A stretch of 64,000 nt of DNA from Rhodopseudomonas pseudopalustris (lineage in GTDB: Bacteria > Pseudomonadota > Alphaproteobacteria > Rhizobiales > Xanthobacteraceae). This document shows, in pieces, positions 7,644 through 25,529 of the stretch. Position numbers and translations under genes: made by a program. The stretch is from positions 62,001 through 126,000 of the forward strand of contig NZ_FODT01000007.1 in NCBI RefSeq assembly GCF_900110435.1, given 5' to 3'. Positions within the stretch are counted from its first letter, which is position 1. Every line of letters starts with the position of its first letter. Below the pieces are notes generated by a model that did not search any database, was not told where the DNA came from, and saw only the letters and a list, made by a program, of their open reading frames with translations.

Positions 7644-8057
7644 TCAACCCTGTGCCTCTCTGCTCTTCGCGGCCTTCTCGGCCACTTTCTTTCGCAGCTT
7701 TTCAATCTCGACGACAAATCGACTGTGGCTTCCGCGGCTGATTTCCTCGATCGCGTCGTTCGCCCTGAGCTCGAAGGTCACGAGGCGGCCTTCGATCTTG
7801 CTGACCGTCACCGTGATGTCGACGTGCATTCCACACAGCGTCGCGCCGCCGTGGGAGATGGTGATGCCGGTGCCGACAGAGTCCTCTCCTGGATCCGTAT
7901 GCGCAAGTATCAGCTCGCGGCATACGGTTTCGAAATCGCGCACCAGCTCCGGGGTGGCATAGACGCGTAGCGTCTCACCGAGAAAGTCGATGCTGCGTGC
8001 GGGATCGATTTCAATCCGATGGGATGCCGATAGGCCAGCGATCAGAGTCGGTCTCAT
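7644..8057 (-). CDS. FlK-family hot-dog acyl-CoA thioesterase
   Basis: A 137-residue hot-dog thioesterase that aligns along its length with fluoroacetyl-CoA thioesterase FlK. The three FlK catalytic residues are matched: Thr35 (YATPE), Glu43 (DFETVC) and His69 (ISHGGAT). The GEDSVGTGI, IEGRLVTF and EIEKLRKKV stretches also correspond. The substrate is probably a CoA thioester, hydrolysed in the cytoplasm; FlK homologues in other contexts are not limited to fluoroacetyl-CoA. The ATG at 8057 is preferred because AGGGGACAC precedes it; an 18-codon extension lacks similarity. It is divergent from the pad operon, so a role in releasing CoA from an aromatic intermediate is possible but only inferred. 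Confidence 0.72.
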   Translation of the reverse strand: MRPTLIAGLSASHRIEIDPARSIDFLGETLRVYATPELVRDFETVCRELILAHTDPGEDSVGTGITISHGGATLCGMHVDITVTVSKIEGRLVTFELRANDAIEEISRGSHSRFVVEIEKLRKKVAEKAAKSREAQG

Positions 8058-8475
8058 TGTGTCCCCTGGTGGTTGAAAGCCGAAAGTCGACGTCGATATG
8101 ATACAAAACATTCAAGAAGAAGCTCAAAAGATAAATCAAGATGGCTCAGTAGGAATTTCCTGATGTGGCTGGCTTTGGCTTTTGGAATTGTGCGTTGCAG
8201 TATGGTTGGGCGCGCCGCAGCAATATGGCGCTGATAATTTGATACATATCAATTGACATGATGGCCTCCAAAAGTATCCAATAATTCGGCATAGAAATAC
8301 CAAATAAGAATCCAGGCTGGGGTGCCGGAGGGCAGGAAGACGCAAGGATCGTGGATTGGCACGGTGCATCGTCGCGTTGGCGGCTGATGCCTGCGCGGGC
8401 CAGTTCCGTCCAATCGCTCCTGAAAGGCGCCTTGCGCTCGACGTGCATCCTGCACGGGCGCTCGAGGAGGAAGCG
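8058..8475. other. Intergenic regulatory region between the thioesterase gene and padB
   Basis: About 418 bases without a supported gene, separating divergent transcription units. It contains the FNR-type box at 8239-8252. Immediately 5' of padB a GAGGAGGAAG ribosome-binding site ends four bases before the ATG. Otherwise nothing was recognised. Confidence 0.6.
8239..8252 (+). promoter_or_regulatory. FNR/FixK/AadR-type binding site upstream of padB
   Basis: TTGATACATATCAA is a perfect match to the FNR-family consensus TTGAT-N4-ATCAA. Placed at the class II position (-41.5), it predicts a transcript start near 8287, about 190 bases before padB. It is the only such box seen before the long pad-liv gene run, which fits anaerobic induction. 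Confidence 0.75.
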
Positions 8476-11223
8476 ATGAGTGCGACGGAGGACGTCAAAC
8501 GCGTTCCGACCTTCTGCTACAATTGCGTATCCGGCCCGGACTTCATGAAAGTGAAGGTCGAGAAAGGCGTCGTCACCGAGGTCGAGCCGAATTTCGATGC
8601 CGAGCAGGTGCACCCGGGCCGCGGCCGGCCCTGCGTCAAGGCCTATGGCATCGTCCAGAAGACCTACAATCCCAACCGCGTCCTGACGCCGATGCGGCGC
8701 ACCAATCCGAAAAAGGGCCGCCATCAAGATCCGGGCTTCACGCCGATCTCATGGGATGAAGCGCTCGACACCATCGCCGAGCGGCTGAAGGGCATTCGCG
8801 CCAAGGGCATGATCGACGACGCCGGCCTGCCGCGGCTCGCCGCCAGCTTCGGCCATGGCGGCACGCCGGCGAACTACATGGGCTCGTTTCCGGCTTTCCT
8901 CGCCGCATGGGGCCCGGTGGATTACAGTTTCGGTTCGGGGCAGGGGGTCAAATGCACCCACTCCGAACATCTCTACGGCGAGTTCTGGCACCGCGCTTTC
9001 ACGGTCGCCGCCGATACGCCCACCACCCGCTATATCATTGCGTTCGGCGCCAATGTCGAAGTCACCGGCGGCCCGACCGCGGTCATCCGCCACGCCGATG
9101 CACGGATTCGCGGCTACAAGCGGGTGCAGGTCGAGCCGAGCCTGACCATCACCGGCGCCTGTTCGGCGGAGTGGGTGCCGATCCGGCCGAAGACCGATCC
9201 GGCCTTCATGTTCGCGCTGATCCATGTGCTGGTGCACGAGCACGGCCTCGATAGGCTCGACATTCCGTTCCTGCGCGATCGCACCGCATCGCCCTATCTG
9301 ATCGGCCCCGACGGGCTGTATCTGCGCGATCCGCTCAGCAACAAGCCGTTGCTGTGGGACGAGGTGACCGGCGGCGCGGTGGCGTTTGATGCGCTTGGGG
9401 CGATTCCGGTGGTCGCCGGACGCTTCCGCGTCGCGCGCGCCGTCACCATCGACGCCGATTCCGCGCGCCGCGACTATGCCGATGTCGAGGCCGTCACCGC
9501 CTATCAGGCGCTCACCGATCACATCAAACGCTACACGCCGGAATGGGCGGCGGAGGTCTGCGACGTTCCGGCGGCGACCATCCGCCGCATCGCCGGCGAA
9601 TATCTCGAGGCCGCCAGCATCGGCGCCACCACCGAGATCGACGGCGTCACCCTGCCGCTGCGGCCGGTGGCGGTGACGCTCGGCAAGTCGGTCAATAATG
9701 GCTGGGGCGCCTATGAATGCTGCTGGGCGCGCACCGTGCTCGCCATGCTGGTCGGCGCACTCGAGAATCCCGGTGGCACCGTCGGCACCACGGTGCGCCT
9801 CAACCGTCCGCAGGACAATCGCCACCTCAGCGTCAAGCCGGGCGACGACGGCTTCATGGTGCAGCACTTCAATCCGACCAGCAGCAACAGCTGGGAAGCG
9901 GAGCCGACCACGCGCAACCTGCACCGCACGCTGGTGCCGATCGTCGGCCGCAATGGCGGCTGGAGCCAGGCGCTCGGGCCGACCCAGCTCGCCTGGATGT
10001 TTCAGGAGAATCTGCCGCCCGACTGGACCATGCCCAAGCCGACCCATCCGGATCTGTGGTTCGTCTACCGCTCGAACCCGGCGATCTCGTTCTGGGATAC
10101 GCGCGCGCTGGCCGAGTCGGTCGCGCGCTTTCCGTTCATGGTCGCCTTCGCCTACACGGTCGACGAAACCAACTACATGGCCGACCTGCTGCTGCCGGAA
10201 GCGACCGATCTTGAATCGACGCAGCTGATCCGGATGGGCGCCACCAAGTATATGGAGCATTTCTGGGACTATCATGGCGTCGCGCTGCGCCAGAAAGCGG
10301 TCGAGCCGCAGGGCGATGCGCGCGACTTCACCTGGATCGCCACCGAACTCGCCAAGCGCACCGGGCTGCTCACCGGCTATGTCGAGCAGTTGAATCGCGG
10401 CATTGCCGGCGTGTCGCCGCTGAAGGGCAAGGACTATGATTTCAGTCTGGACCCGGCGCAGGCGCCCGAGCCCGAGCAGATCTGGGATTCGATCTGCCGC
10501 GCCGCGACCACGACGCTGTCCGACGGCAAGCACTGCCACGGGCTCGACTGGTTCAGGGAGCACGGCTTCTACGCCATCCCGATGTCCCGGCTGCAATGGT
10601 ACCTGACCCCGACGATGGAGCAGCAGGGGCTGCGCTACGAGCTCCCCTATCAGGAGCGGCTGCTGCGGGTCGGGCGCGAACTGGGCAATCGTCTGCACGA
10701 GCAGAAGATGCACTGGTGGGACGAGCAGCTCGCCGAATATGCGGCGCTGCCCGATTGGCACGACGTGCCCGGCCGGTGGGAGCGCGCGCTGGTCAATTCC
10801 GGCGCCCGCAGCGAGGATTTTCCGTTCTGGCTGCTGACCACCAAGAGTATGCAGTATCACTCCGGCGGCAATGCCGGGATCGCGCTGATGGACGAGGTGT
10901 CCGAGAATCTGCACGGCCACACCGGCGTCATCATCAATGTCGACACCGCGGCGAAACTCGGTATCGGCGAGGGCGAACGGGTCGAGGTCCGCTCGCATAT
11001 CGGCGCCACCTACGGCAAGGCCGCGCTGGTCAAGGGGGTGCGTCCGGATACGCTGGTGATCATCGGCCAATTCGACCATTGGGCGACGCCGTATATCAAG
11101 GATAGCGAGCGCGCCAGCCTCAACACCATCGCGCCGATGACGCTGGAACTCAGCGATGCAACCGGCTCCGGCGCCGATATCGTGCGCGTCGCCGTGCGCC
11201 GGATGCAGAGGCCGGCGGCATGA
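8476..11223 (+). CDS. padB: Phenylacetyl-CoA:acceptor oxidoreductase, molybdopterin subunit PadB
   Basis: A 915-residue DMSO-reductase-family molybdopterin protein. With PadC and PadD it is expected to oxidise phenylacetyl-CoA to phenylglyoxylate at the cytoplasmic membrane, passing electrons to quinone. Order with padC, padD and the phenylglyoxylate oxidoreductase genes matches Aromatoleum/Thauera pad clusters. The N-terminal Fe-S motif has only three obvious cysteines, Cys14, Cys17 and Cys53, not the usual four. A cysteine in GVKCTHSEHLYGEFWH is a candidate Mo ligand (inference). No twin-arginine signal is present, so the catalytic subunit should be cytoplasmic. The ATG at 8476 follows GAGGAGGAAG; upstream extension is not family-like. 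Confidence 0.85.
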   Translation: MSATEDVKRVPTFCYNCVSGPDFMKVKVEKGVVTEVEPNFDAEQVHPGRGRPCVKAYGIVQKTYNPNRVLTPMRRTNPKKGRHQDPGFTPISWDEALDTIAERLKGIRAKGMIDDAGLPRLAASFGHGGTPANYMGSFPAFLAAWGPVDYSFGSGQGVKCTHSEHLYGEFWHRAFTVAADTPTTRYIIAFGANVEVTGGPTAVIRHADARIRGYKRVQVEPSLTITGACSAEWVPIRPKTDPAFMFALIHVLVHEHGLDRLDIPFLRDRTASPYLIGPDGLYLRDPLSNKPLLWDEVTGGAVAFDALGAIPVVAGRFRVARAVTIDADSARRDYADVEAVTAYQALTDHIKRYTPEWAAEVCDVPAATIRRIAGEYLEAASIGATTEIDGVTLPLRPVAVTLGKSVNNGWGAYECCWARTVLAMLVGALENPGGTVGTTVRLNRPQDNRHLSVKPGDDGFMVQHFNPTSSNSWEAEPTTRNLHRTLVPIVGRNGGWSQALGPTQLAWMFQENLPPDWTMPKPTHPDLWFVYRSNPAISFWDTRALAESVARFPFMVAFAYTVDETNYMADLLLPEATDLESTQLIRMGATKYMEHFWDYHGVALRQKAVEPQGDARDFTWIATELAKRTGLLTGYVEQLNRGIAGVSPLKGKDYDFSLDPAQAPEPEQIWDSICRAATTTLSDGKHCHGLDWFREHGFYAIPMSRLQWYLTPTMEQQGLRYELPYQERLLRVGRELGNRLHEQKMHWWDEQLAEYAALPDWHDVPGRWERALVNSGARSEDFPFWLLTTKSMQYHSGGNAGIALMDEVSENLHGHTGVIINVDTAAKLGIGEGERVEVRSHIGATYGKAALVKGVRPDTLVIIGQFDHWATPYIKDSERASLNTIAPMTLELSDATGSGADIVRVAVRRMQRPAA

Positions 11224-11873
11224 GCAAACGCTATGTGATGGCGATCGATCTGCGCCGCTGCGTCGGCTGCCAGACCTGCACCGCGGCCTGCAAGAGCGCC
11301 AACGCGACAGCCCCCGGCGTGCAATGGCGGCGCGTGCTCGATCAGGAGACCGGCGAGTTTCCGGATGTGCGCCGCACCTTCCTGCCGGTGGCGTGCATGC
11401 ATTGCGCCAATCCGCCCTGCGTCGAGGTCTGCCCGACCACGGCGACCCGCCGGCGCGAGGATGGGCTGGTCACCATCGACTATGACATCTGCATCGGCTG
11501 CGCCAATTGCATCATGGCCTGCCCCTATGATGCGCGCTCGATCGAGCACCAGCCGCGCTACGCCTTCGGCAAGGCGATGACGCATGAGATCGCACGGTCC
11601 AGTCCCGAGCGGCTGTCGGTCGCCACCAAATGCACCTTCTGCCAGGGGCGCGTCGACCGCGCCGCCGCCACCGGCCAGATCCCCGGCGTCGATCCGGACG
11701 TGACGCCGGCCTGCGTCAATTCCTGCATCTCCGGCGCGATGCATTTCGGCGACGTTGCCGATCCGGACAGCAATGTTTCGCAATTGCTGGCCAGTTCGCA
11801 GCACTTCCGGATGCACGAGGAATTGGAGACCGATCCGTCGGTGTTTTACATCTGGGGCGGGAGCGAAACATGA
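11220..11873 (+). CDS. padC: Phenylacetyl-CoA:acceptor oxidoreductase, Fe-S subunit PadC
   Basis: A 217-residue NrfC/DmsB-type ferredoxin subunit that carries electrons from PadB to the membrane subunit. Four cysteine clusters are visible: CVGCQTCTAAC (about residue 14), CMHCANPPCVEVCP (about 60), CIGCANCIMACP (about 91), and CTFC with the later CVNSC, consistent with four [4Fe-4S] centres. It starts inside the last codons of padB (ATGA overlap at 11220-11223) and its own stop overlaps the padD start, indicating translational coupling and fixed stoichiometry. Confidence 0.88.
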   Translation: MSKRYVMAIDLRRCVGCQTCTAACKSANATAPGVQWRRVLDQETGEFPDVRRTFLPVACMHCANPPCVEVCPTTATRRREDGLVTIDYDICIGCANCIMACPYDARSIEHQPRYAFGKAMTHEIARSSPERLSVATKCTFCQGRVDRAAATGQIPGVDPDVTPACVNSCISGAMHFGDVADPDSNVSQLLASSQHFRMHEELETDPSVFYIWGGSET

Positions 11874-12757
11874 GCAGGCCGCACAAGATCATCGATCGGA
11901 TGATGCCGCGCCAGCAGACCTATTGGGACGCGCGGGCGGCGATCAACTTCATCTGCGTCGGCGCCGGCGGCGGCCTGCTGTTCGTCACCGCGCTGGCTTC
12001 GCCGGCCGCCGACGATCTGCGGCCGCTGCTGGTGCTGGCGCTGGCGCTGGTCGGCACCGGCATGACCGCGGTCTGGTTCGAGATCGGCCGGCCGCTGCGC
12101 GCGTTCAACGTCTATCGCAACGCGGCGACGTCGTGGATGACGCGCGAAGCGATCATCGTCCTGTTGCTGGTCGTGTCCGCCGCCGCCGCCATCGTGTTCG
12201 ACCAGCGGGCGGCGCTGGCGATCGCCGGTCTGCTCGGCCTCGCCGTCGCCTTCGCGCAGGGGCGCATTCTGCGCGCGCAAAAAGGCATCCCAGCTTGGCG
12301 ATGCTCGATCTGCGTCAGCATGATCGTGGTCAGCGGCCTGACCGAGGGCGCGGGCCTGCTCAGCCTTGCGGCGTTGTACTGGCCGGCGCTGCTGCCGTTC
12401 GGCATCCTGCTCGCCGGCCTTGCCGGCGTCCGCCTGCTGGTCTGGCGCAACTACCTCGCCACCTTGCGCCGCGATGGCGCGCCGTCCGGAACGTTGCAGG
12501 CGTTCGCCGCCATCGATCGCCGGTTCGTCTGGCTCGGCCACGCGCTGCCGATGCTACTTGCGGTGGCCGGCGTGGTCGCCGGATCGAGCTTGCTGATTGC
12601 GCTCGCCGGCGTGCTGGCCGCCGTTGCGGGAGGCTGGTTCAAATACACGCTGATCTGCCGTGCCGGATTCACCCAGGGGTTCGCCCTGCCGCGGACGCCC
12701 GAGCGCGGCGGCGGCGCGGCGGGTGCGGGCATCCAGCCTGGGTGGACGCGCGCTTAA
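11870..12757 (+). CDS. padD: Phenylacetyl-CoA:acceptor oxidoreductase, membrane anchor PadD
   Basis: A 295-residue, very hydrophobic NrfD/DmsC-like protein with about eight predicted transmembrane helices (roughly residues 22-42, 48-68, 90-110, 112-126, 145-165, 168-185, 214-235 and 237-255). It should anchor PadBC and transfer electrons to quinone. The start overlaps the padC stop (ATGA). The N-terminal MPRQQTYWDARAAINFICVG resembles anchors of related Mo enzymes. Membrane anchors diverge fast, so the name rests mainly on its position directly after padBC. Confidence 0.8.
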   Translation: MSRPHKIIDRMMPRQQTYWDARAAINFICVGAGGGLLFVTALASPAADDLRPLLVLALALVGTGMTAVWFEIGRPLRAFNVYRNAATSWMTREAIIVLLLVVSAAAAIVFDQRAALAIAGLLGLAVAFAQGRILRAQKGIPAWRCSICVSMIVVSGLTEGAGLLSLAALYWPALLPFGILLAGLAGVRLLVWRNYLATLRRDGAPSGTLQAFAAIDRRFVWLGHALPMLLAVAGVVAGSSLLIALAGVLAAVAGGWFKYTLICRAGFTQGFALPRTPERGGGAAGAGIQPGWTRA

Positions 12758-12808
12758 ATTATCGAGCCGACCTGCAAGGCGGGCGGCAGTGGCCAATGAG
12801 GGGATGCG

Positions 12809-13381
12809 ATGTACGAAGTCCGTCTACATGGTCGCGGAGGTCAGGGCGCGGTGATGGCCGCCGGCATACTCGCCGCCGGGCTGGTTGCCGAAGGCCGGTT
12901 TGCGGTGGCGATTCCCTCGTTCGGTTTCGAGCGGCGCGGCGCGCCGGTGGTTGCGTTCCTCCGCTCGGACGAGCGCGAAATCCGCCGCATGACCAACATC
13001 ACCTATCCGGACTGCGTGGTCTGCATCGACCCGACCGTGGCGCGGTCGGTGGACATCTTCGCCGGGCTGAAGCCGGGCGGCACGCTGGTGCAGACCACCA
13101 GCAAACCGCTTGCCGCGCTCGAACTATCGGATGCCGTCGGCACGGTCGGTTTGATCGACGCCATCCGCATCGCCATGGAAATCTTTCGCCGGCCGATCAC
13201 CAATACGCTGATGCTCGGCGCCTTCGCCCGCACCACCGGCGTGGTGTCGCTCGACGCGCTGAAACAGGCGCTGGCGGACTCCGATTTCCGCGATGCCGGG
13301 CTTGGCCAGAACCTGGCGGCGCTCGACCGCGGCTACCATGAAACCGAGGTGCATCGCCTTGGCTGCGAGGCCGCCGCATGA
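12809..13381 (+). CDS. padE: Phenylglyoxylate:acceptor oxidoreductase gamma subunit PadE
   Basis: A 190-residue gamma subunit of a 2-oxoacid:acceptor oxidoreductase. It starts MYEVRLHGRGGQGAVMAAGI, the hallmark of this domain, and carries SFGFERRGAPVVAFLR, also typical. With PadFGHI it should convert phenylglyoxylate, CoA and NAD to benzoyl-CoA, CO2 and NADH. It lies 51 bases after padD with no terminator between them, and its stop overlaps the padF start (ATGA). Length is normal for a free-standing gamma subunit. Confidence 0.87.
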   Translation: MYEVRLHGRGGQGAVMAAGILAAGLVAEGRFAVAIPSFGFERRGAPVVAFLRSDEREIRRMTNITYPDCVVCIDPTVARSVDIFAGLKPGGTLVQTTSKPLAALELSDAVGTVGLIDAIRIAMEIFRRPITNTLMLGAFARTTGVVSLDALKQALADSDFRDAGLGQNLAALDRGYHETEVHRLGCEAAA

Positions 13382-13680
13382 GCAGCCATCGCGCCTATCC
13401 GATGTTCGATCCGGGCCAGGCCGGCGTGCCCGACGATCTTTGCCCGATCGCGACCGACATCAACCCGATGCTGCCCGGCGACTGGCGCAGTATGCGGCCG
13501 GTGGTGGACCGCGACAAATGCGTCAAGTGCGCGGTGTGCTGGCTGTACTGCCCGGTGCAATGCATGGTCGAACGCCCGGCCTGGTTCGATGTCGATCTGC
13601 GCACCTGCAAGGGGTGCGGCATCTGCGCCAACGAATGTCCGCACCGCGCGATCGCCATGGTGGAGGAGACGGCGGGATGA
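13378..13680 (+). CDS. padF: Phenylglyoxylate:acceptor oxidoreductase ferredoxin-like delta subunit PadF
   Basis: A 100-residue protein with two [4Fe-4S] motifs, CVKCAVCWLYCPVQC (about residues 44-58) and CKGCGICANECP (about 77-88), the standard delta subunit of pyruvate-type oxidoreductases. It transfers electrons from the TPP site on PadI toward the flavoprotein PadH. It overlaps padE at its start and padG at its stop (13677-13680). Confidence 0.87.
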   Translation: MSSHRAYPMFDPGQAGVPDDLCPIATDINPMLPGDWRSMRPVVDRDKCVKCAVCWLYCPVQCMVERPAWFDVDLRTCKGCGICANECPHRAIAMVEETAG

Positions 13681-14921
13681 GCACAGCAATCCTGGAGAAG
13701 GACCACGCGGCATCCAACAAGCCACGCCACATCGTTTGCGAAGGCAACGAGGCGGCGGCGCTGGCGGTGGCGATGGTGCGGCCGGACATGGTGTCGGTCT
13801 ATCCGATCACGCCGCAGTCGAGCCTGGTCGAACATCTGGCCAAGCTGGTCGCCGACGGCCGGATGGACGCCGAGATCGTCGATGCCGAAGGTGAGCACTC
13901 CGTGCTCTCGGTGCTGCAGGGCGCCGCCCTCGCTGGCGGCCGGACGTTTACCGCCACCTGCGGTCCCGGACTGGCCTTCATGTTCGAACCGTATTTCCGG
14001 ACTTCCGGCATGCGGCTGCCGATCGTGATGGCGCTGGTCACGCGCGACGGCATCACGCCGCAATCGGTCTGGGGCGGTCATCAGGATGCGATGACCGTTC
14101 GCGAGGTCGGTTGGGTGCAGATGTATTGCGAGACGGTGCAGGAGGTGCTCGACACCACGATCATGGCGTTCCGCATCGCTGAACACCATGACGTCATGCT
14201 ACCGGTCAATATCTGCCTCGACGGCAACTATCTTTCCTACGGCGCCGCGCGGGTGACGCTGCCCGAGCAATCCGACGTCGACGCCTTCATGGGCGACAAG
14301 GACGTCAACTGGCACGCCGCGCTCGATCCGCTCCGGCCGATGGCGGTCGACCCGCTCACCGGCGGCTCCGGCGGCAAGGGGCCGGCCACCTTCGTGCGCT
14401 ATCGCAAGGGCCAGTGCCGCGGCATGCAGAATGCGCTGCGTGTGATCACCGAGGTGCACGCGGAATATGCCGCCCGGTTCGGCCGCAGCTTTGCGCCGCT
14501 GGTCGAGCAGTATCGCATGGACGACGCCGAGTTCGCGTTGATGACGCTCGGCAGCATGACCGGCGCCGCCAAGGATGCGGTCGACGAGGCGCGCGACGCC
14601 GGCAAGCGCGTCGGCATCGTCAAGATCAAGACCTTCAGTCCGTTTCCGGTCGAGGCGTTGCGGTCGGCGCTGTCCGGGATCAAGGCGCTCGGCGTGGTCG
14701 ATCGCTCGGTCGGTTTCCGGTGGAATTGCGGGCCGATGTATCAGGAGGTGCAGGGCGTGCTGTACCGGCTCGGCCGCCATGTCCCGGCCGCCAGTTTCAT
14801 CGGCGGGCTGGCCGGCGCCGACATCACGGTCGAGCATTTCCACTGCGTGATCGACCAGACCGAAGCCCTGCTCACCGGCGCCGTGCCGAGCGGGCCGGTC
14901 TGGATCAACGAGAACGATTGA
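13677..14921 (+). CDS. padG: Phenylglyoxylate:acceptor oxidoreductase alpha subunit PadG
   Basis: A 414-residue alpha subunit of a 2-oxoacid oxidoreductase. It has the pyrimidine-binding domain signature SVYPITPQSSLVEHLAKL near residue 42, then EGEHSVLSVLQGAALAGGRT and the substrate-side TRDGITPQSVWGGHQD region. The family core is complete and has no frameshift. It overlaps padF by four bases and is followed 10 bases later by padH. Substrate assignment to phenylglyoxylate comes from the adjacent padBCD and padJ, not from the motif itself. Confidence 0.86.
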   Translation: MSTAILEKDHAASNKPRHIVCEGNEAAALAVAMVRPDMVSVYPITPQSSLVEHLAKLVADGRMDAEIVDAEGEHSVLSVLQGAALAGGRTFTATCGPGLAFMFEPYFRTSGMRLPIVMALVTRDGITPQSVWGGHQDAMTVREVGWVQMYCETVQEVLDTTIMAFRIAEHHDVMLPVNICLDGNYLSYGAARVTLPEQSDVDAFMGDKDVNWHAALDPLRPMAVDPLTGGSGGKGPATFVRYRKGQCRGMQNALRVITEVHAEYAARFGRSFAPLVEQYRMDDAEFALMTLGSMTGAAKDAVDEARDAGKRVGIVKIKTFSPFPVEALRSALSGIKALGVVDRSVGFRWNCGPMYQEVQGVLYRLGRHVPAASFIGGLAGADITVEHFHCVIDQTEALLTGAVPSGPVWINEND

Positions 14922-14931
14922 GGGACGCGCG

Positions 14932-16179: not shown

Positions 16180-16181
16180 GC

Positions 16182-17510
16182 ATGGGACAGGCCTACACCA
16201 CGATCGCCTTCGACGCCGCCAAATGCGACGGCTGTCAGCAATGCATGAGCGCCTGCGCCACCGCCAAGAAAGGCGCCGACGACAGCGCACGGGCGCGCCT
16301 CCAGGTGCTGCCGACGGACAGCGGCTTCGAACTGGCGATGTGTCGCCAGTGTGGCGATCCGAAATGCGTCACCGTCTGTCCGGCCGGAGCACTGGCCAAG
16401 GACGGCGACACCGGCGTGATCGGATGGGACGCCGGCAAATGCGTCGATTGCCTGCTGTGCACGGTGGGCTGCGCCTATGCGGGGATCGCGCGCGACGCCG
16501 CTGACGGCCGCGTCGCCAAATGCGATATGTGCGATGGCGCGCCGGCCTGCGTCGCGGCCTGCCCGACCGCGGCGCTGAGCCACATCACCACCGCGCGGAT
16601 CTACAACGAAGTCGGCGACTGGGAGGATTTGTTCACGCCGGGCCTCGCCGGCTGTCAGGGCTGCAACACCGAACTGCTGATGCGTCACGCGCTGCGCCGC
16701 GTCGGTCCGGATACCGTGCTGGCAACGCCGCCGGGCTGCGTGCCGGGGATGGGATCGGTCGGCTATAACGGCCTGACCGGGACCAAGGTGCCGGTGTTTC
16801 ATCCACTCCTGACCAATACCGCGCCGATGCTGGCGGGGGTCAAGCGCCAGCTCAAGCGCAAGGGCCGCGAGGTGACGGCGATGGCGATCGCCGGCGACGG
16901 CGGCGCGTCCGACGTCGGCTTCCAGTCGCTGTCGGGCGCCGCCGAGCGCGGCGAAGAAATCCTGTTCATGGTGGTCGACAACGAAGGCTACATGAACACC
17001 GGGATGCAGCGATCGAGCTGCACGCCCTACGGCGCCTGGACCTCGACCACGCCGGTGGGACGCGAGTCCAAGGGCAAGACCCAGGACGCCAAGAACCTGC
17101 CGCTGCTGATGGTCAACCATCGCTGCGCCTATGTGGCGACCGCTTCCACCGCCTTCATGCAGGATCTCTACGACAAGCTCGACAAGGCGATCGCCGCCTC
17201 CAAACAAGGCTTCGCCTATCTGCATGTCTACTCGCCCTGCACCACCGGCTGGCGGTTTCCTACCGACCAGAACATGGAAGTGGCGCGCAAGGCGGTGGAG
17301 ACGAATTTCGTCATGCTCTGGGAATTCACTCCGAGCAATGGCCTGCATTTCACCCATCCGGTCGACGCGCCGCTGCCGATCACCGACTACCTCAAGGCGA
17401 TGGGGCGCTTCCGCCATCTCGACGCCGATCAGATCCGGCACATCCAGGCCAAGGTCGACGAGAACCGCGCCATCATCGAACAGCTCGCGACCGGGGTGAG
17501 AGCGGCCTGA
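16182..17510 (+). CDS. padI: Phenylglyoxylate:acceptor oxidoreductase beta subunit PadI (TPP and Fe-S)
   Basis: A 442-residue beta subunit in which an N-terminal polyferredoxin domain is fused to the TPP-binding domain. The Cys motifs are CDGCQQCMSAC, CRQCGDPKCVTVCP, CVDCLLCTVGC and CDMCDGAPACVAACP (residues about 14-130); the TPP signature is GDGGASDVGFQSLSG with NEGYMNTGMQ following. The ATG at 16182 is three bases after the padH stop; a GTG at 16176 overlapping that stop is an alternative in the same frame. It completes the padEFGHI set. Confidence 0.86.
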   Translation: MGQAYTTIAFDAAKCDGCQQCMSACATAKKGADDSARARLQVLPTDSGFELAMCRQCGDPKCVTVCPAGALAKDGDTGVIGWDAGKCVDCLLCTVGCAYAGIARDAADGRVAKCDMCDGAPACVAACPTAALSHITTARIYNEVGDWEDLFTPGLAGCQGCNTELLMRHALRRVGPDTVLATPPGCVPGMGSVGYNGLTGTKVPVFHPLLTNTAPMLAGVKRQLKRKGREVTAMAIAGDGGASDVGFQSLSGAAERGEEILFMVVDNEGYMNTGMQRSSCTPYGAWTSTTPVGRESKGKTQDAKNLPLLMVNHRCAYVATASTAFMQDLYDKLDKAIAASKQGFAYLHVYSPCTTGWRFPTDQNMEVARKAVETNFVMLWEFTPSNGLHFTHPVDAPLPITDYLKAMGRFRHLDADQIRHIQAKVDENRAIIEQLATGVRAA

Positions 17511-17537
17511 CGCGGCGCGCGCGCTACGCAACCAAGT

Positions 17538-17573
17538 AAGACCGAAAAGACCAAAAAGACCGAAAAGGCGAAA
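17538..17573 (+). repeat. Short imperfect purine-rich direct repeat
   Basis: Between padI and padJ the sequence contains three imperfect copies of a roughly 10-base unit built on AAGACC(G/A)AAA, followed by AAGGCGAAA. It lies in the 134-base gap and encodes nothing evident. It may be slippage-derived or an mRNA spacer. Confidence 0.6.
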
Positions 17574-17644
17574 CGGCTGAGGCAGAAAAAGTTCACAGCG
17601 TCCTCGAGGCGCGAACGACAGAACTTCGTAGCAGGGGGGACGGC

Positions 17645-18961
17645 ATGAATATCAGCGTCAATGCGAAAGGGATCGAACCGATCGAACTCGCCAGCCGCGA
17701 TGAACTGCAGGCCCTGCAGTTGCAGCGGCTGCAATGGACGTTGCGGCACGCCTACGACAACGTCGCGCATTATCGCGCCAAGTTCGATCAGGCCGGCGTC
17801 CATCCGGATGATCTGAAGTCGCTGGCCGATCTCGCCAAGTTTCCATTCACCACCAAGGATGACCTGCGCCAGACCTATCCGTTCGGGATGTTCGCGGTGC
17901 CGATGCGCGATATTGTCCGGGTGCACGCATCGTCGGGCACCACCGGCAAGCCGACCGTGGTCGGCTACACTGAGCGCGATATTTCGACCTGGGCCGGGCT
18001 GATGGCGCGGTCGCTGCGCGCCGCCGGCGCCACCGCCGACGACATCATCCTCAATTCCTACGGCTACGGCCTGTTCACCGGCGGACTCGGCGCCCACTAT
18101 GGCGGGGAGCGGCTCGGCGCGGCGGTGATACCAATGTCCGGCGGTCAAACCGAGCGGCAGGTGCAGCTGATCCAGGACTTCAAGCCGACCGTGCTGTTGT
18201 CGACGCCGTCCTATTCGCTGACCATCGCCGACGAGCTGACCCGCCAGAACGTCAAACCGGGCGGCACCAGCCTGCGGATCGGGCTGTTCGGCGCTGAACC
18301 CTGGACCAACGAGATGCGGCGGGAGATCGAGGCGCGGCTCGGCATCGACGCGGTCGACATCTATGGCCTGTCCGAAGTGATGGGGCCGGGCGTCGCCTGC
18401 GAATGCGTCGAGACCAAGGACGGTCCGCATATCTGGGAAGACCATTTCTATGCCGAGATCGTCGACTCGCTCACTGGCAAGCCGTTGCCGGATGGCGAGG
18501 AGGGCGAACTGGTGTTCACCTCGTTGACCAAGGAAGCGCTTCCGATCATCCGCTATCGCACCCGCGACCTGACCCGGCTGATGCCCGGCAGCGCGCGCAA
18601 CATGCGGCGGATGGGCAAGATCACCGGCCGCTCCGACGACATGCTGATCATTCGCGGGGTGAATCTGTTTCCGACTCAGATCGAGGAAATCCTGCTGCGG
18701 AATACGAGCCTCTGCGCGCAATACCAGCTGCAGGTCAGCCGCGATGGCAATCTGGATAAGCTCGACGTGTTCGTCGAACTGCAACCGGATTTGTCGGACC
18801 AGACCGAGCGCGAGCAGCGCGAGGCGATCGGCCGCGACGTCGCGCATCACATCAAATCGATGATCGGCGTCAGCGCCACCGTCCATGTGGTCGCGACCGA
18901 CACCATCGAGCGGACCATCGTCGGCAAAGCCAAGCGGGTGATCGACAAGCGCACGTCCTAG
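17645..18961 (+). CDS. padJ: Phenylacetate-CoA ligase (anaerobic pathway)
   Basis: A 438-residue PaaK/PadJ-type ligase that activates phenylacetate with ATP and CoA to phenylacetyl-CoA, the substrate of PadBCD. The ATP-binding loop is SSGTTGKPTVVGYT (about residue 99), followed by the family motifs SYGYGLFTGGLGAHYG and IYGLSEVMGPGVACEC, then YRTRDLTRLMPG and TGRSDDMLIIRGVNLFPTQIE near the C-terminal hinge. Length is typical (430-440). It is the ninth pad gene in order, 134 bases after padI and 33 bases before livH. Confidence 0.9.
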   Translation: MNISVNAKGIEPIELASRDELQALQLQRLQWTLRHAYDNVAHYRAKFDQAGVHPDDLKSLADLAKFPFTTKDDLRQTYPFGMFAVPMRDIVRVHASSGTTGKPTVVGYTERDISTWAGLMARSLRAAGATADDIILNSYGYGLFTGGLGAHYGGERLGAAVIPMSGGQTERQVQLIQDFKPTVLLSTPSYSLTIADELTRQNVKPGGTSLRIGLFGAEPWTNEMRREIEARLGIDAVDIYGLSEVMGPGVACECVETKDGPHIWEDHFYAEIVDSLTGKPLPDGEEGELVFTSLTKEALPIIRYRTRDLTRLMPGSARNMRRMGKITGRSDDMLIIRGVNLFPTQIEEILLRNTSLCAQYQLQVSRDGNLDKLDVFVELQPDLSDQTEREQREAIGRDVAHHIKSMIGVSATVHVVATDTIERTIVGKAKRVIDKRTS

Positions 18962-18994
18962 GTGCAGGCGCGCCGTTCCGGCGAAGGAGGCAAG

Positions 18995-19870
18995 ATGTTC
19001 TCGCAGATCCTGCAATTCATGTTTTCCGGCGTCACGGTAGGCGCGACCTATGCGCTGGCGGCGCTCGGCTTCACGCTGATCTACAACGCCAGCAACGTGA
19101 TCAACTTCGCGCAGGGCGAGTTCATCATGCTCGGCGGCATCCTCACCGTGTTCTTCTTCAAGACCGGCCTGCCGCTTCCGGTCGCGCTGTTGCTGGCGGT
19201 GGCAATTCCGGCGATGGTCGGCGTCCTGGTCGAGAAACTCGCGATCGAGCCGGCCAAGGGCGCCGGCGTCGAGAGCCTGATCATCATCACCATCGGCGCA
19301 TCGTTGGTGCTGCGCGGTCTGGTGCAGATCTCGTTCGGCAAGGGCGCCGCTTCCTTCCCGGCGTTTTCCGGCGACGCGCCGATCAACATCGGCGGCGCTG
19401 CGCTGGCGCCGCAGAGCCTGTGGGTGCTCGGAACCACGGCGGTGGTCGTGCTGGCGCTGTGGCTGTTCTTCAACAGGACCGTCGCCGGCAAGGCCATTCT
19501 GGCGACGTCCTACGATCCGCTCGCCGCGCAGTTGGTCGGGGTCAATACCCAGCTGGTGCTGCTGGTCAGTTTCGCGCTGTCGGCGGCGATCGGCGCGATG
19601 GGCGGGATTCTGCTGACGCCGATCACGATGACCTCCTACGATGTCGGGATCATGCTCGGCCTCAAGGGTTTCGTGGCGGCGGTGGTCGGCGGTCTCGGCT
19701 CCGGGCTCGGCGCTGTGGTCGGCGGATTGCTGGTCGGAATCGTCGAAGCGTTGACCGCCGGCTACGTCTCCTCGGCCTACAAGGACGCCGTGCCGTTCTT
19801 GCTGATCTTCGTCATCCTGTTCTTCATGCCGCGCGGCCTGTTCGGCGCCAAGACGACGGAGCGGGTATGA
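18995..19870 (+). CDS. livH: Branched-chain-type ABC transporter permease LivH
   Basis: A 291-residue inner-membrane permease with about eight hydrophobic helices. It begins MFSQILQFMFSGVTVGATYA and carries the LivH hallmark GFTLIYNASNVINFAQGEFI. The ATG at 18995 is chosen because GAAGGAGG sits five bases upstream. With livM, livG, livF and livK it forms a complete HAAT-type importer. Its place at the end of the pad operon suggests uptake of phenylacetate or a related aromatic acid rather than amino acids; this is inference from context. Confidence 0.88.
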   Translation: MFSQILQFMFSGVTVGATYALAALGFTLIYNASNVINFAQGEFIMLGGILTVFFFKTGLPLPVALLLAVAIPAMVGVLVEKLAIEPAKGAGVESLIIITIGASLVLRGLVQISFGKGAASFPAFSGDAPINIGGAALAPQSLWVLGTTAVVVLALWLFFNRTVAGKAILATSYDPLAAQLVGVNTQLVLLVSFALSAAIGAMGGILLTPITMTSYDVGIMLGLKGFVAAVVGGLGSGLGAVVGGLLVGIVEALTAGYVSSAYKDAVPFLLIFVILFFMPRGLFGAKTTERV

Positions 19871-20796
19871 AACGCGCCCATGCAGGCCTCCTCGTTCTCA
19901 CCGCGATCCTGCTGCTGTTGCCGCTGGTACTGCCGAACGCGTTCTATTTCGACATCGTCAACCGCATGGCGATCAATGCGGTGATCGTACTCGGGCTCAA
20001 TCTGCTGATCGGTTTTGCCGGCCAGATCAGTCTTGGCCACGCCGGCTTCTTCGGCATCGGCGCCTATGCGTCGGCGATTCTCACCACGCACTTCTCCTGG
20101 CCGCCGCTGGCGGCGCTGGCGGTCGGCGCGGTCGGCGCGGCGCTGCTGGCATTGGCGATCGCGCCGCCGATCTTCCGCCTGCGCGGCCACTATCTGGCGA
20201 TGGCGACGCTGGGGCTGGGGATCGTGATTTCGATCGTGCTCAAGAACGAGGCGGCCTATACCGGCGGCCCCGACGGCATGTCGGTGCCGCCGCTGACGCT
20301 GTTCGGGTTCGAGATCTATGGCGAGCGGCAATGGTACTGGCTGTTCGCCGCCATCCTGCTGTTCAGCGTCTGGGCCTGCCAGAACCTGATCGACTCGCCG
20401 TTCGGGCGGGCGCTGCGGGCGCTGCACGGCTCGGAAGTCGCCTCGCAGGTCGTCGGCGTCGACGTCGCCCGCTACAAGGTGGCGATCTTCGTGCTGTCGG
20501 CGTTCTTCGCCAGCATCATGGGCAGCCTGTCGGCGCATTATGTCGGCTTCGTCACCCCCAACGCCGCCGAATTCCTCCACTCGATCGAACTGATGACGAT
20601 GGTGGTGGTCGGCGGCATGGCCTCGGTCTACGGCTCGGTGATCGGCGCCGTGCTGCTGACCGCGTTGCCGCAGGCGCTGGCGACGTTCGAAGGCTGGGAG
20701 ACGGTGGCTTTCGGCGTCATCCTGATGGTGTCGATGATCTTCCTGCCGAAAGGGCTGGTGCCGACGATCGCCGCCAAACTGGGAAGGAAGCGCTGA
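19867..20796 (+). CDS. livM: Branched-chain-type ABC transporter permease LivM
   Basis: A 309-residue second permease, with about nine hydrophobic segments and the LivM-typical NLLIGFAGQISLGHAGFFGI and TGGPDGMSVPPL stretches. It begins at the ATG overlapping the livH stop (19867-19870) and its last base is shared with the livG start, so the transporter genes are translationally coupled. It should pair with LivH to form the transmembrane channel of the importer. Confidence 0.88.
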   Translation: MKRAHAGLLVLTAILLLLPLVLPNAFYFDIVNRMAINAVIVLGLNLLIGFAGQISLGHAGFFGIGAYASAILTTHFSWPPLAALAVGAVGAALLALAIAPPIFRLRGHYLAMATLGLGIVISIVLKNEAAYTGGPDGMSVPPLTLFGFEIYGERQWYWLFAAILLFSVWACQNLIDSPFGRALRALHGSEVASQVVGVDVARYKVAIFVLSAFFASIMGSLSAHYVGFVTPNAAEFLHSIELMTMVVVGGMASVYGSVIGAVLLTALPQALATFEGWETVAFGVILMVSMIFLPKGLVPTIAAKLGRKR

Positions 20797-21557
20797 TGGC
20801 GCTGCTCGAAATCTCCGATCTCAGCAAGACCTTCGGCGGCGTGCTGGCGGTGCAGAACGTCAGCTTCAGTGTCGACCAGGGCATCGTCTATTCGGTGATC
20901 GGCCCGAACGGCGCCGGCAAGACCACGTTGTTCAACCTGATCACCGGAATCTATACGCCCTGCGACGGCGAAATCCGCCTCGGCGGCGAGCTGGTGTCGG
21001 GGCTGGCACCGCATCAACTCGCGCGCAAGGGGATGGGACGGACGTTTCAGAATCTGCAGATCTGCATGAACATGACGGCGATCGAGAATGTGATGGTCGG
21101 CGGCCATCTGTCGCTCGATCGCAATCTGGTCAAGAGCATGTTGCGGTTCCCGTCGCTGCGCCGCGCCGACGCCGTGCTGCGGGAGCACGCGGCCGAGCTG
21201 ATGGTCTATGTCGGGCTCGAGCCCTATCTGAACAGCGAGGCCAGCGCCATGTCCTATGGCGCGCTGAAGCGGCTGGAAATCGCGCGGGCGCTGGCGGCCA
21301 AGCCCCGGATTCTGTTTCTCGACGAACCCGCCGCCGGATTCAATCCGAAGGAAACCGCCGAGATCGACAATCTGGTCAGAAAGATTGCCGATAGCGGCAT
21401 CACCGTCGTTCTGGTGGAGCACGACATGAAAATGGTGATGAACATCTCCGACCGCATCCTCGTGCTCAACTACGGCAGGAAGCTCACCGAGGGATCGGCG
21501 CGCGACGTTCGCGATAATCCCGAAGTGATTGCTGCCTATCTCGGCACGGCGGCGTGA
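20796..21557 (+). CDS. livG: Branched-chain-type ABC transporter ATPase LivG
   Basis: A 253-residue ABC ATPase. Walker A GPNGAGKTTLFNLITG (about residue 36), the Q-loop region GMGRTFQNLQ, a signature-like SYGALKRLEIARAL, Walker B ILFLDEPAAGFNP, and the switch-region EHDM are present. The signature reads MSYGALKRLEI instead of LSGGQ-, as is common in LivG proteins. The start shares one base with the livM stop. Confidence 0.9.
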   Translation: MALLEISDLSKTFGGVLAVQNVSFSVDQGIVYSVIGPNGAGKTTLFNLITGIYTPCDGEIRLGGELVSGLAPHQLARKGMGRTFQNLQICMNMTAIENVMVGGHLSLDRNLVKSMLRFPSLRRADAVLREHAAELMVYVGLEPYLNSEASAMSYGALKRLEIARALAAKPRILFLDEPAAGFNPKETAEIDNLVRKIADSGITVVLVEHDMKMVMNISDRILVLNYGRKLTEGSARDVRDNPEVIAAYLGTAA

Positions 21558-22357
21558 TCGCCATGACCGAGCCGTTGCAAACACCTCTCGTCGATCGCGT
21601 TCCGGGTCAGATCGGGCAACAGGATGCGGGCGGGCCGGCGTCGGCGACGCCGCTGCTCGACATCCGCGCACTGGGCAGCCACTACGGCCGGATCGCGACG
21701 CTACGCGGCGTCAATCTCGCGGTCGGCCGGCGGCAACTGGTCGCGTTGGTCGGCGCCAATGGCGCCGGCAAGACCACCTTGCTGCGCACCATCTCCGGTG
21801 TGCAGAAGGCGACCGGCGGCGGCATCCTGTTCGACGGCGAGGACATCACCGGGATGCGCGCCGACAGGCGGGTGCGGCTCGGTATCTGCCATGTGCCGGA
21901 AGGCCGCCGGGTGTTCGGTCCGCTGTCGGTGAAGGACAATCTGCGCCTCGGCGCCTATTGCCGCGCCGACGACGGCGAGATCGCGGACGATCTCGAGCGC
22001 ATGTATGCGATGTTTCCGATTCTCAAGCAGAAGGCCAGGCTGCCGGCCGGAACGCTGTCCGGCGGTCAGCAGCAGATGCTGGCCATCGCGCGCGCTTTGA
22101 TGGGGCGGCCCCGGCTTTTGCTGCTCGACGAGCCGTCGATGGGGCTGGCGCCGCTTCTGGTCGAGGAAATCTTCAGCGCCATTACCGAGCTGCGCAAGCA
22201 GGCGATGACGATTCTGCTGGTGGAGCAGAACGCGCACGCCGCGCTGGCGATCGCCGATCGGGCCTATGTCATCGAGACCGGCGAGATCGTGTTGTCGGGC
22301 AGCGGAAAGGAACTGCTCGATAATGAAAAGGTCCGCGAGGCCTATCTCGGGATTTGA
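21554..22357 (+). CDS. livF: Branched-chain-type ABC transporter ATPase LivF
   Basis: A 267-residue ABC ATPase with Walker A GANGAGKTTLLRTISG, a canonical LSGGQQQMLAIARAL signature, Walker B LLLLDEPSMGLAP and the following EQNA. The GTG at 21554 overlaps the livG stop; the ATG at 21563 is an alternative in frame. The first 35 residues are low in similarity and proline/alanine rich, longer than in standard LivF. It probably energises the LivHM importer together with LivG. Confidence 0.88.
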   Translation: MIAMTEPLQTPLVDRVPGQIGQQDAGGPASATPLLDIRALGSHYGRIATLRGVNLAVGRRQLVALVGANGAGKTTLLRTISGVQKATGGGILFDGEDITGMRADRRVRLGICHVPEGRRVFGPLSVKDNLRLGAYCRADDGEIADDLERMYAMFPILKQKARLPAGTLSGGQQQMLAIARALMGRPRLLLLDEPSMGLAPLLVEEIFSAITELRKQAMTILLVEQNAHAALAIADRAYVIETGEIVLSGSGKELLDNEKVREAYLGI

Positions 22358-22411
22358 GCAGAGCAAGTTTCAATCGTCGTCGTCGATATATCCAACGGGA
22401 GGAGCATTGGA

Positions 22412-23557
22412 ATGAATAGGTTTCTGACAACATGTCTGGCGGCCGCATTTGGGCTCGGCCTGGCCGTGCAGGCCAAGGCGGCCGAGCCGATCAAAATCGG
22501 CTCGGTGCTTTCGGTCACCGGCCCGGCCGCCTTCCTCGGCGATCCGGAGCTGAAGACCCTGCAGCTCTATGTCGAGAAGATCAATCAGGAGGGCGGCCTG
22601 CTCGGGCGGCCGGTGCAGCTCATCCATTACGATGACGGCTCCGACGCCACCAAGGCGAATAGTTTCGGCAAGCGCCTGATCGAGGACGACAAGGTCGACG
22701 TGCTGATCGGCGGCACCACCACCGGCTCGACGATGTCGATGGCGCCGCTGGTCGATCGCGCCGGAATTCCGTTCATTTCGCTGGCGGGCGGCGTGGTGAT
22801 CGTCGAGCCGGTGAAGAAATGGATGTTCAAGACGCCGCATACCGACCGCATGGCGGCCGAGCGGGTGTTCGGCGACATGAAGAAGCGCAACCTGACCAAG
22901 GTCGCGCTGTTGTCGGAGACCAGCGGCTTCGGTCAATCCGGCAAGAAGGAGAGCGAGGCGGCGGCGGCGCGGCTCGGCATCACGCTGGTCGCCAACGAGA
23001 CCTACGGTCCGAAAGATACCGACATGAGCCCGCAACTCACCAATATCAGGAGCACGGCGGGGGTGCAGGCGCTGTTTATTTTCGGCCTCGGTCAGGGACC
23101 GGCGATCGCCAACAAGAACGCCAAGATGCTCGGGCTGAGCCTTCCGATCTACCATGCGCATGGCGTGGCGTCGGAGGAGTTCATCAAGCTGTCGGATGGC
23201 GCCGCCGAAGGCATCCGCCTGCCGGCCGCCGCTCTGCTGGTGGCAAGCAAGTTGCCGGACAACGATCCGCAGAAGCCGATCGCGCTCGGCTACGCCAAGG
23301 CCTACACCGACCGCTACAAGGAAGAGGTTTCGACCTTCGGCGGCCATGCCTATGACGCGCTGATGATCATGGTGTCGGCGATCAAGCGCGCCGGCGACAC
23401 CGACAAGAACAAGGTGCGCGACGCGATCGAGCAGACCAAGGACCATATCGGCGCCGACGGCAAGTTCAACATGTCGCCGACCGACCATATGGGCCTCGAC
23501 CTGTCGGCGTTCCGGATACTCGAAGTCCGGAACGGCGACTGGGTGCTGGTCGATTGA
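22412..23557 (+). CDS. livK: Periplasmic substrate-binding protein of the aromatic-acid-type ABC importer
   Basis: A 381-residue periplasmic binding protein of the LivK/HAAT class. A clear signal peptide covers residues 1-23 (MNRFLTTCLAAAFGLGLAVQ then AKA/AEP). The mature part begins with IKIGSVLSVTGPAAFLGDP, typical of the family, and has SFGGHAYDALMIM near the C terminus. GGGAGGAGC precedes the ATG. Ligand is unknown from sequence; the pad context points to phenylacetate or a close relative. It is the last gene before a strong hairpin terminator. Confidence 0.85.
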   Translation: MNRFLTTCLAAAFGLGLAVQAKAAEPIKIGSVLSVTGPAAFLGDPELKTLQLYVEKINQEGGLLGRPVQLIHYDDGSDATKANSFGKRLIEDDKVDVLIGGTTTGSTMSMAPLVDRAGIPFISLAGGVVIVEPVKKWMFKTPHTDRMAAERVFGDMKKRNLTKVALLSETSGFGQSGKKESEAAAARLGITLVANETYGPKDTDMSPQLTNIRSTAGVQALFIFGLGQGPAIANKNAKMLGLSLPIYHAHGVASEEFIKLSDGAAEGIRLPAAALLVASKLPDNDPQKPIALGYAKAYTDRYKEEVSTFGGHAYDALMIMVSAIKRAGDTDKNKVRDAIEQTKDHIGADGKFNMSPTDHMGLDLSAFRILEVRNGDWVLVD

Positions 23558-23563
23558 TGGCTG

Positions 23564-23594
23564 GTCGCGTCCGGCGGCGGCCGGACGCGACTTT
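23564..23594 (+). terminator. Rho-independent-type terminator after livK
   Basis: A perfect 11-base inverted repeat GTCGCGTCCGG / CCGGACGCGAC with a six-base loop, followed by TTT, begins six bases after the livK stop. It would end the pad-liv transcript and insulate paaX. Confidence 0.75.
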
Positions 23595-23639
23595 CGCCAT
23601 CGCCTTTCGTCTCAGGGGGCGGACGCTGATAACTCCGCA

Positions 23640-23663
23640 GACTGTTGATTTTTCATCACAGTC
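23640..23663. promoter_or_regulatory. Dyad upstream of the PaaX-type gene, possible operator
   Basis: GACTGTTGAT and ATCACAGTC form an imperfect dyad (one base missing in the right arm) around a TTTTC centre, about 60 bases before the PaaX-type start. It could be an autoregulatory site; no experimental motif was available for comparison. Confidence 0.35.
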
Positions 23664-23720
23664 CTACGGATGAATGCCGAGAGGGTCGCCCCTGGCGATC
23701 CTCGGGGTTACAATGCCGTC

Positions 23721-24659: not shown

Positions 24660-24714
24660 TCAGGCGCTCCGCACTGCAATGCAACATAATTTGGCAGCGC
24701 AATACCAAAAATAG

Positions 24715-25511: not shown

Positions 25512-25529
25512 GCGGCTGCGCGTTACTGA

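Follow-up and report, generated by a model that had tools for sequence, protein, structure and literature searches.

Introduction

Anaerobic phenylacetate degradation has its closest described counterparts to the locus considered here in the pad clusters of Aromatoleum and Thauera, for one of which, that of Aromatoleum aromaticum EbN1, the accessible part of the literature names an associated padR, as well as phenylglyoxylyl-coenzyme A (phenylglyoxylyl-CoA) as an intermediate (PMC9765128). For regulation, the nearest precedent is the Escherichia coli paa catabolon, whose repressor PaaX is reported to bind TGATTC(N27)GAATCA with phenylacetyl-CoA as the inducer and is encoded in an operon with the thioesterase gene paaY, as far as the available portion of the source goes (PMC9493321). 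Excerpts of further papers state that in Rhodopseudomonas palustris FixK activates aadR and AadR in turn activates badDEFGAB (PMC6191541), and that the FixK box reads TTGA(N6)TCAA (PMC3050613). Here I compare with these systems a run of 14 genes, padBCD-padEFGHI-padJ-livHMGFK, in a 64,000-nt stretch of Rhodopseudomonas pseudopalustris (G000:C14:62001-126000, from a genome of 5.27 Mb in 28 contigs), which is called the window throughout.

I conclude with good, though not complete, confidence that this run is an operon for the anaerobic conversion of phenylacetate to benzoyl-CoA with HAAT-type import, PaaX-type repression at padB and an FNR-type site laid over the repressor's site. The pathway is a known one, well preserved in an unusual host, and this kind of operon is common to distant bacteria; importer, ligase, oxidases and repressor recur as a set, and the exact operator sequence can be given and tested by gel shift. 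Regulation is the part that an earlier note on this DNA seems to have misread, since its FNR box makes better sense as one part of a PaaX-type operator, and the same note passed over two genes, a paaX gene behind the run and a divergent FlK-type thioesterase gene with its own operator-like site.

The pad genes and the proposed route to benzoyl-CoA

The features were compared with pad loci L038-L117, the best 80 of 119 in a PadG scan, and lie in the window as follows.

8476-11223, + strand: padB, molybdopterin subunit of phenylacetyl-CoA:acceptor oxidoreductase (Pfam PF00384, PF01568)
11220-11873, + strand: padC, iron-sulfur subunit (4Fe-4S domains, orthology)
11870-12757, + strand: padD, membrane anchor (weak DmsC match, 25.5 against 22.3 bits; six hydrophobic segments by hydropathy)
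12809-13381, + strand: padE, phenylglyoxylate dehydrogenase gamma subunit (NF045762, 338 bits against a cut-off of 300)
13378-13680, + strand: padF, small subunit of phenylglyoxylate dehydrogenase (by position; 57-86% identity where found in L038-L117)
13677-14921, + strand: padG, alpha subunit (NF045764, 789.5 against 700)
14932-16179, + strand: padH, NADH-linked epsilon subunit (NF045765, 730 against 475)
16182-17510, + strand: padI, beta subunit (NF045766, 839.3 against 700)
17645-18961, + strand: padJ/paaK, phenylacetate-CoA ligase (TIGR02155, 696.6 against 646.3)
18995-19870 and 19867-20796, + strand: livH and livM, HAAT-type ABC permeases
20796-21557 and 21563-22357, + strand: livG and livF, HAAT-type ABC ATPases
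22412-23557, + strand: livK, HAAT-type binding protein with a signal-peptide-like N-terminus
23564-23591, + strand: hairpin after livK and before paaX, perfect 12-bp GC stem with a 4-nt loop
23721-24659, + strand: paaX-family repressor (TIGR02277, 297.7 against 264.55; possible alternative start: the ATG upstream, at 23670)

The earlier description of a co-oriented pad-liv run with gaps of at most 134 bp and ATGA overlaps holds: all 14 genes lie on the + strand under the names it gave them, the widest gap, between padI and padJ, is 134 bp, and five ATGA overlaps join padB/C, padC/D, padE/F, padF/G and livH/livM. The order from padB to livK and then paaX recurs exactly in Rhodoplanes serenus (L038; identities to the window of 85% for PadB, 83% for LivK and 80% for PaaX) and in a beta-proteobacterial metagenome-assembled genome (MAG; L068), while L081 runs from padB to livK with paaX beginning at the end of the retrieved stretch, and beta-proteobacterial loci L040, L042, L043, L049, L054, L065 and L067 hold padB-J and liv with paaX divergent upstream. 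Measured against the Aromatoleum/Thauera cluster, the enzymes padBCD, padEFGHI and padJ and their core order are the same (PadB is 71-74% identical in Aromatoleum/Azoarcus loci and 60% in Thauera loci), and in Aromatoleum a PaaX-family gene also stands near padB; in contrast, the window has paaX at the 3' end, the HAAT importer inside the unit and no fdhD, and its host has the bad pathway next door.

PadE, PadG, PadH, PadI and PaaK/PadJ all score above NCBIfam equivalog cut-offs, and PadBCD follow in the order molybdenum subunit, iron-sulfur subunit and anchor and are orthologous to those of known phenylacetate-degrading genera, with no twin-arginine (Tat) motif seen at the PadB N-terminus. 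Elsewhere in the window, benzoyl-CoA reductase subunits A-D, BadH and BadI are also above their cut-offs. These family assignments support the reading of the pad-liv unit as the anaerobic phenylacetate pathway, in which LivHMGFK would import phenylacetate or a close arylacetate, PadJ would convert phenylacetate to phenylacetyl-CoA, PadBCD would oxidize this at the membrane to phenylglyoxylate, PadEFGHI would yield benzoyl-CoA, CO2 and NADH, and the neighboring bad gene products would then reduce the aromatic ring. The electron acceptor of PadBCD would be a quinone.

A companion gene of padB in the relatives is fdhD, which I take to encode a molybdenum-cofactor sulfuration factor. It lies directly 5' of padB in 28 loci among L040-L073 and also in L081, whereas in Rhodoplanes (L038:2843-3745) it sits behind the thioesterase gene and the present genome has a single copy away from the window (G000:C17:140497-141207). 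Its placement next to padB hints that PadB needs a sulfurated molybdenum site.

The importer and its likely substrate

The importer is complete as a HAAT type, with two permeases, two ATPases and a periplasmic binding protein, and every component falls below the curated Liv cut-offs (LivH 139 against 379 bits, LivM 179 against 366, LivG 290 against 362, LivF 262 against 441, LivK 77 against 477), so that branched-chain amino acids are not implied. The suggestion of the earlier note that the substrate is phenylacetate or a relative of it is supported by the LivK phylogeny, by an exchange of transporters behind padJ and by fold matches. First, pad-linked LivK forms a clade of 14 sequences with support of 1.0 (ten pad loci, the window and three Magnetospirillum-type loci) that adjoins the LivK of nine congeners. 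Second, in 31 loci the retrieved DNA extends at least 5.2 kb beyond padJ, and among these the slot behind padJ holds the same HAAT importer in 10 and TRAP genes (DctP/DctM) in another 10, never both, the remaining slots having a CoA-ligase-like gene (8 loci), a distant HAAT importer (L069) or none of these (L074 and L075); the TRAP genes were identified by Pfam in L044 and, for DctP, in L047, and otherwise by tblastn with the L044 proteins, a screen that is blind to other importers. Third, the solved structures closest to LivK are 3sg0 and 4dqd by sequence and 7ylt, 3sg0 and 4dqd by fold. The title of 4dqd names a complex with 3-phenylpyruvic acid, and in the fold search R. palustris binding proteins whose titles mention p-coumarate or 'caff...' outrank the entries titled as leucine-binding. 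Because of these closest sequences and this ranking, the LivK ligand is likely an aromatic acid, and the gene slot after padJ would make phenylacetate the likeliest one. The aromatic-acid HAAT importers of R. palustris (RPA0668/hbaE and RPA1789) share the binding-protein fold family and a location near aromatic catabolic genes, according to excerpts of PMC3223731, whereas the LivK of the window belongs to its own pad-linked clade and shares 22-28% identity with those R. palustris structures that rank among its top 30 folds.

It is also possible, if rather doubtful, that the importer takes up not phenylacetate but phenylglyoxylate, acids derived from mandelate or arylpyruvates, which would enter at PadEFGHI or before PadJ. 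The phenylpyruvic acid complex among the near structures would fit this, as would the Magnetospirillum-type loci L103, L108 and L112 (not L104), where liv lies directly before padEFGHI, a position that is not readable in L110, where the stretch begins inside the cluster. In congeners G001 and G003 a sister livKHMGF has genes for a 2-oxoacid oxidoreductase and a paaK-like gene as neighbors (in G001, IOR alpha is above its cut-off and the PaaK match just below, 613.9 against 646.3 bits); in G004 the upstream neighbors scanned are unrelated housekeeping genes (a UDP-sugar dehydrogenase gene, metK and ahcY). Further, R. palustris is said in the available text to grow anaerobically on mandelate (PMC3223731). 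Set against all of this is the location of liv 3' of padJ, the phenylacetate ligase gene, in the window and 10 other loci, and of TRAP genes at the same place in 10 more.

Predicted control at the padB promoter

Three features overlap in front of padB.

8253-8280, + strand: predicted padB promoter (-35 TTGACA at 8253-8258, 16-bp spacer, -10 TATCCA at 8275-8280, +1 near 8287)
8240-8278, + strand: PaaX-type operator-like TGATACA-N27-GTATC straddling the padB promoter; written as TGATAC(N28)GTATCC it spans 8240-8279
8239-8252, no strand assigned: perfect FNR/FixK-type palindrome TTGATACATATCAA, centered at -41.5 of the predicted +1

The main padB promoter appears to be under a phenylacetyl-CoA-sensing repressor of the PaaX type. 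It carries paired TGAT-type half-sites 27-29 bp apart, as PaaX operators do, and Rhodoplanes (L038) has the same 27/16 geometry, with TGACACA and GTATCAT. Among the 28 intergenic regions from loci with divergent paaX upstream of fdhD-padB, the nine-base word TGATACAAA occurs in 19, as the left half of TGATACA-N28-GTATCGT, and the TTG of the -35 element stands exactly 17 bases before the TATCGT -10 element. The pattern was framed by eye and then searched with up to two mismatches, N27 or N28 and a spacer of 16-18 over up to 1400 bp upstream of padB in 38 loci, and operator and promoter were found together in 31 of the 38, compared with none of 152 coding stretches of 1400 bases, the misses being L045, L069, L075, L076, L078, L080 and L106; a slightly wider operator search found nothing in 1400 mononucleotide shuffles. 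Of the 32 loci whose retrieved DNA includes a paaX-like gene, 31 have the operator, as against none of the six without one (Fisher p 2.5e-6). Within the present genome TGATACA-N25-30-GTATC occurs in one place, this one, and across the 16 genomes of the genus in 13 places, fewer than one per genome, against one for a backwards control pattern. A TGATACAAA half-site also precedes padEFGHI in Magnetospirillum sp. SS-4 (L112:8956).

Among solved structures the best relative of the paaX product is 8a39 (E 1.7e-59), an entry whose name describes a transcriptional repressor of phenylacetic acid degradation. Aerobic paaA has a match in 14 of the 16 genus genomes (above the cut-off in 13, the present genome included) and paaX is found in two, here as the genome's sole match at E <= 1e-20 and in G013 beside paaA, which places the one paaX match of the present genome at the pad unit. 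The repressor made from the end of the unit would bind the operator straddling the padB promoter, and phenylacetyl-CoA would release it. The likeness to the E. coli paa catabolon lies in the regulator family, in two six-base half-sites 27-29 bp apart and in a thioesterase gene linked to the paaX system, whereas the window differs in its anaerobic enzymes, in the half-site (TGATAC, not TGATTC) and in a thioesterase of the FlK type encoded divergently from padB.

The earlier note had reported one perfect FNR-type box upstream and concluded that the whole unit is induced without oxygen. The box, TTGATnnnnATCAA, is confirmed at 8239-8252, and its location, with the center at about -41.5 relative to the predicted start as in class II FNR promoters, fits an FNR/AadR-controlled promoter. 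The window holds four perfect FNR-type sites where shuffles predict 0.04, and the whole genome has them at 21 distinct places; the other three in the window lie before an hbaR-like gene (24715), upstream of the gene for benzoyl-CoA reductase subunit C (43199; gene start near 43072, as inferred from a profile match) and before a cstA-like gene (56799). What is less secure is oxygen as the whole explanation: the palindrome contains the upstream half-site of the PaaX-type operator, and the nearest relative, Rhodoplanes serenus, has no such palindrome at the homologous promoter (TTGACACACATAGA). The right half of the palindrome matches 0 to 4 of five letters in the relatives and 3 in Rhodoplanes.

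One could still hold that oxygen mainly governs the unit through an FNR/AadR/FixK-type activator at 8239 and that the likeness to a PaaX operator is incidental, given the perfection, number and placement of the palindromes and the FixK and AadR precedents cited above. Thauera loci L076, L078 and L080 would also suit it, in which TTGACAAATATCAA or TTGACATTTATCAA precedes the predicted start of padB by 118-119 bp; apart from the window, no other of the 38 loci matches a relaxed FNR pattern within 450 bp, and these three have no paaX in the retrieved DNA. I consider this unlikely, for the TGATAC half-site and its -35/-10 layout recur in 31 of 32 paaX loci while the right half of the palindrome does not, the paaX gene travels with the unit, and the second operator-like site on the thioesterase side, described below, would be left unexplained. 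Dual control by a PaaX-type repressor and an FNR-type activator is the better reading, because the palindrome is perfect and centered at -41.5 of the predicted start, with oxygen control plausible as an addition and not alone. My reading is that in this lineage an FNR-type site has come to lie on top of a PaaX half-site. The palindrome, which shares bases with the upstream half of the operator, is probably the target of an FNR/AadR-type activator, so I propose that the oxygen and substrate signals converge on a single site.

A likely single transcription unit

That padB-livK form one transcription unit, as the earlier note put it in calling the run a single operon, is likely because Rhodoplanes and the beta-proteobacterial loci preserve the gene order, and what needs amending is the 3' end, where paaX, on the same strand, had been left out. 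The strong hairpin at which the run was said to end is present, with no T-run behind it and paaX still to come after livK; the terminator scan does not list it, and promoter and terminator scans gave no more matches than in shuffles. Two or more transcripts (padBCD-padEFGHI, padJ-liv and paaX), started from promoters inside the run, either in the 134-bp padI-padJ gap, which holds an A-rich repeat, or after the hairpin that precedes paaX, are improbable, as neither strand of the window shows a further operator site, promoter-like matches in 8000-25600 are not above shuffles (4 against 3.1), padI and padJ are 0-37 bp apart in 30 of 38 relatives and overlap in 4 (72-178 bp in the last 4, with 101 in Rhodoplanes), and the livK-paaX gap, 112 or 163 bp here for an ATG at 23670 or 23721, is by the 112-bp convention 27 bp in Rhodoplanes and 45 bp in L068. 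A tRNA-Gly called by ARAGORN inside livF (21858-21933, +) was rejected as a false call, having no Rfam match at gathering level.

Several points weigh against a substrate-controlled phenylacetate operon as drawn here. PadBCD have no equivalog model among their matches, and because of this they are assigned by orthology and position. The operator half near the -10 element overlaps promoter sequence, so that part of its conservation may be the promoter's own, and the operator of the window is among the weaker sites, with two mismatches, N27 and a 16-bp spacer. The Fisher test ignores both the kinship of the loci, which are mostly Rhodocyclales, and the early end of some stretches; L069 has a paaX-like gene yet no site that passes the full search. 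LivK could bind phenylglyoxylate or phenylpyruvate, and the model used in its fold search is moderately confident (mean pLDDT, predicted local distance difference test, 77.4; a single-sequence model at 49.5 was not used). Finally, the livK-paaX gap with its strong hairpin could split two transcripts.

A divergent FlK-type thioesterase

On the other side of the padB promoter lie two features on the opposite strand.

7644-8057, - strand: FlK-type (hot-dog fold) thioesterase gene, divergent from padB (PF22636, 95.3 bits against a cut-off of 27)
8099-8138, - strand: second PaaX-type operator-like site, on the thioesterase side, with 2 mismatches in 12 fixed bases

The best solved relatives of the thioesterase are FlK structures (3p3f, E 4.7e-17). 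With the fluoroacetyl-CoA thioesterase FlK it shares PF22636 and the aligned Thr, Glu and His, which I take to be the catalytic triad of FlK and which 40, 40 and 39 of 40 pad-linked proteins retain, the remaining one having a gap; in contrast to FlK, nothing points to fluoroacetyl-CoA as its substrate. FlK-type genes occur in the retrieved DNA of 32 of 41 padB loci and 39 of 80 pad loci, on either side and in either orientation, and among the padB loci were not found in L040, L049, L052, L059, L066, L076, L080, L106 and L112, for some of which the stretches are short. The distance from the start of the second site to the padB operator is 141 bp in the window, 142 in L068 and 141 in L081, and of six divergent FlK-pad regions, the window included, five have a thioesterase-side site and L038 has none, this site being the only one found in the divergent region of L069 and of L075. 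An operator general to the thioesterase genes of pad loci was considered and rejected: 5 of 39 upstream stretches, the window apart, have a site with at most two mismatches, against 49 of 3200 random ones, and some of the five are the padB operator read from the opposite strand.

The likeliest role for the thioesterase would be hydrolysis of phenylglyoxylyl-CoA, or else release of CoA together with a resetting of the inducer. A literature search over titles and the opening lines of abstracts, with subscription journals mostly outside its reach, turned up no paper recognizably about an FlK-type thioesterase in anaerobic phenylacetate clusters. If it is a pathway member, it bears both on how phenylglyoxylyl-CoA is hydrolyzed and on how the inducer level is reset. 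More tentatively, and with rather less than even confidence, I suggest an overlooked module across the pad clusters of Proteobacteria, composed of a PaaX-type repressor, a TGATAC-N28/29-GTATC operator around the first promoter and a dedicated FlK-type thioesterase tied to the cluster, in the same regulon in some lineages, that would hydrolyze phenylglyoxylyl-CoA or drain phenylacetyl-CoA and thereby reset the inducer; the FNR overlay found here would then make a site that needs both the absence of oxygen and the presence of phenylacetyl-CoA.

Distribution

The earlier note had called the presence of pad genes beside an hba/bad island notable, and within the genus this stands, PadG being above its cut-off in 1 of 16 genomes. 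Sampling more widely, the same holds for 5 of 391 genomes of the family, 1 of 385 of the class and 1 of 398 of the phylum, with the present genome counted in each. Congeners G004-G006 keep hbaA, hbaC, hbaD and the hbaR-like gene at 72-87% (the names hbaA-D and hbaR are in part my presumption), with no pad gene within the 20 kb retrieved. What had been missed is the recurrence of the pad-liv arrangement outside the genus, in Rhodoplanes and beta-proteobacteria. A tree of PadE/G/H/I from 70 sequences joins the window to Rhodoplanes (support 0.963) and Rhodoblastus sphagnicola (0.997). Their neighbors in it are beta-proteobacterial and unplaced MAG sequences, the Magnetospirillum-type loci fall elsewhere, and the deeper nodes that follow are poorly supported (0.65 and 0.38). 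Transfer of the pad unit between these groups is likely, with no direction implied. Anaerobic alpha-oxidation of phenylacetate is extended here to a genome whose 15 compared congeners lack PadG.

The surrounding window

The pad-liv run lies between cas genes and the hba-bad island, which extends from 25530 onward, and the remaining features are these.

717-7213, - strand: type I-C-like cas3, cas5, csd1, cas7 and cas4, left of the pad unit
7422-7536, - strand: Rfam ALIL pseudoknot (66.7 bits against 50), between cas3 and the thioesterase gene
33296-36446, - strand: 2-oxoacid:acceptor oxidoreductase pair (alpha, TIGR03710, 576.6 against 482.75 bits; beta) and a rubrerythrin-like gene
54226-55377, - strand: RuBisCO large-subunit-like gene, matching its model from position 143 on
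55761-56720, + strand: CbbR-like regulator gene, below its cut-off

ALIL presumably marks an IS3-type element, and at the left edge of the pad unit it is probably the remnant of an insertion sequence. The 2-oxoacid:acceptor oxidoreductase pair sits beside a benzoate-CoA-ligase-family gene and possibly supplies reduced ferredoxin to benzoyl-CoA reductase.

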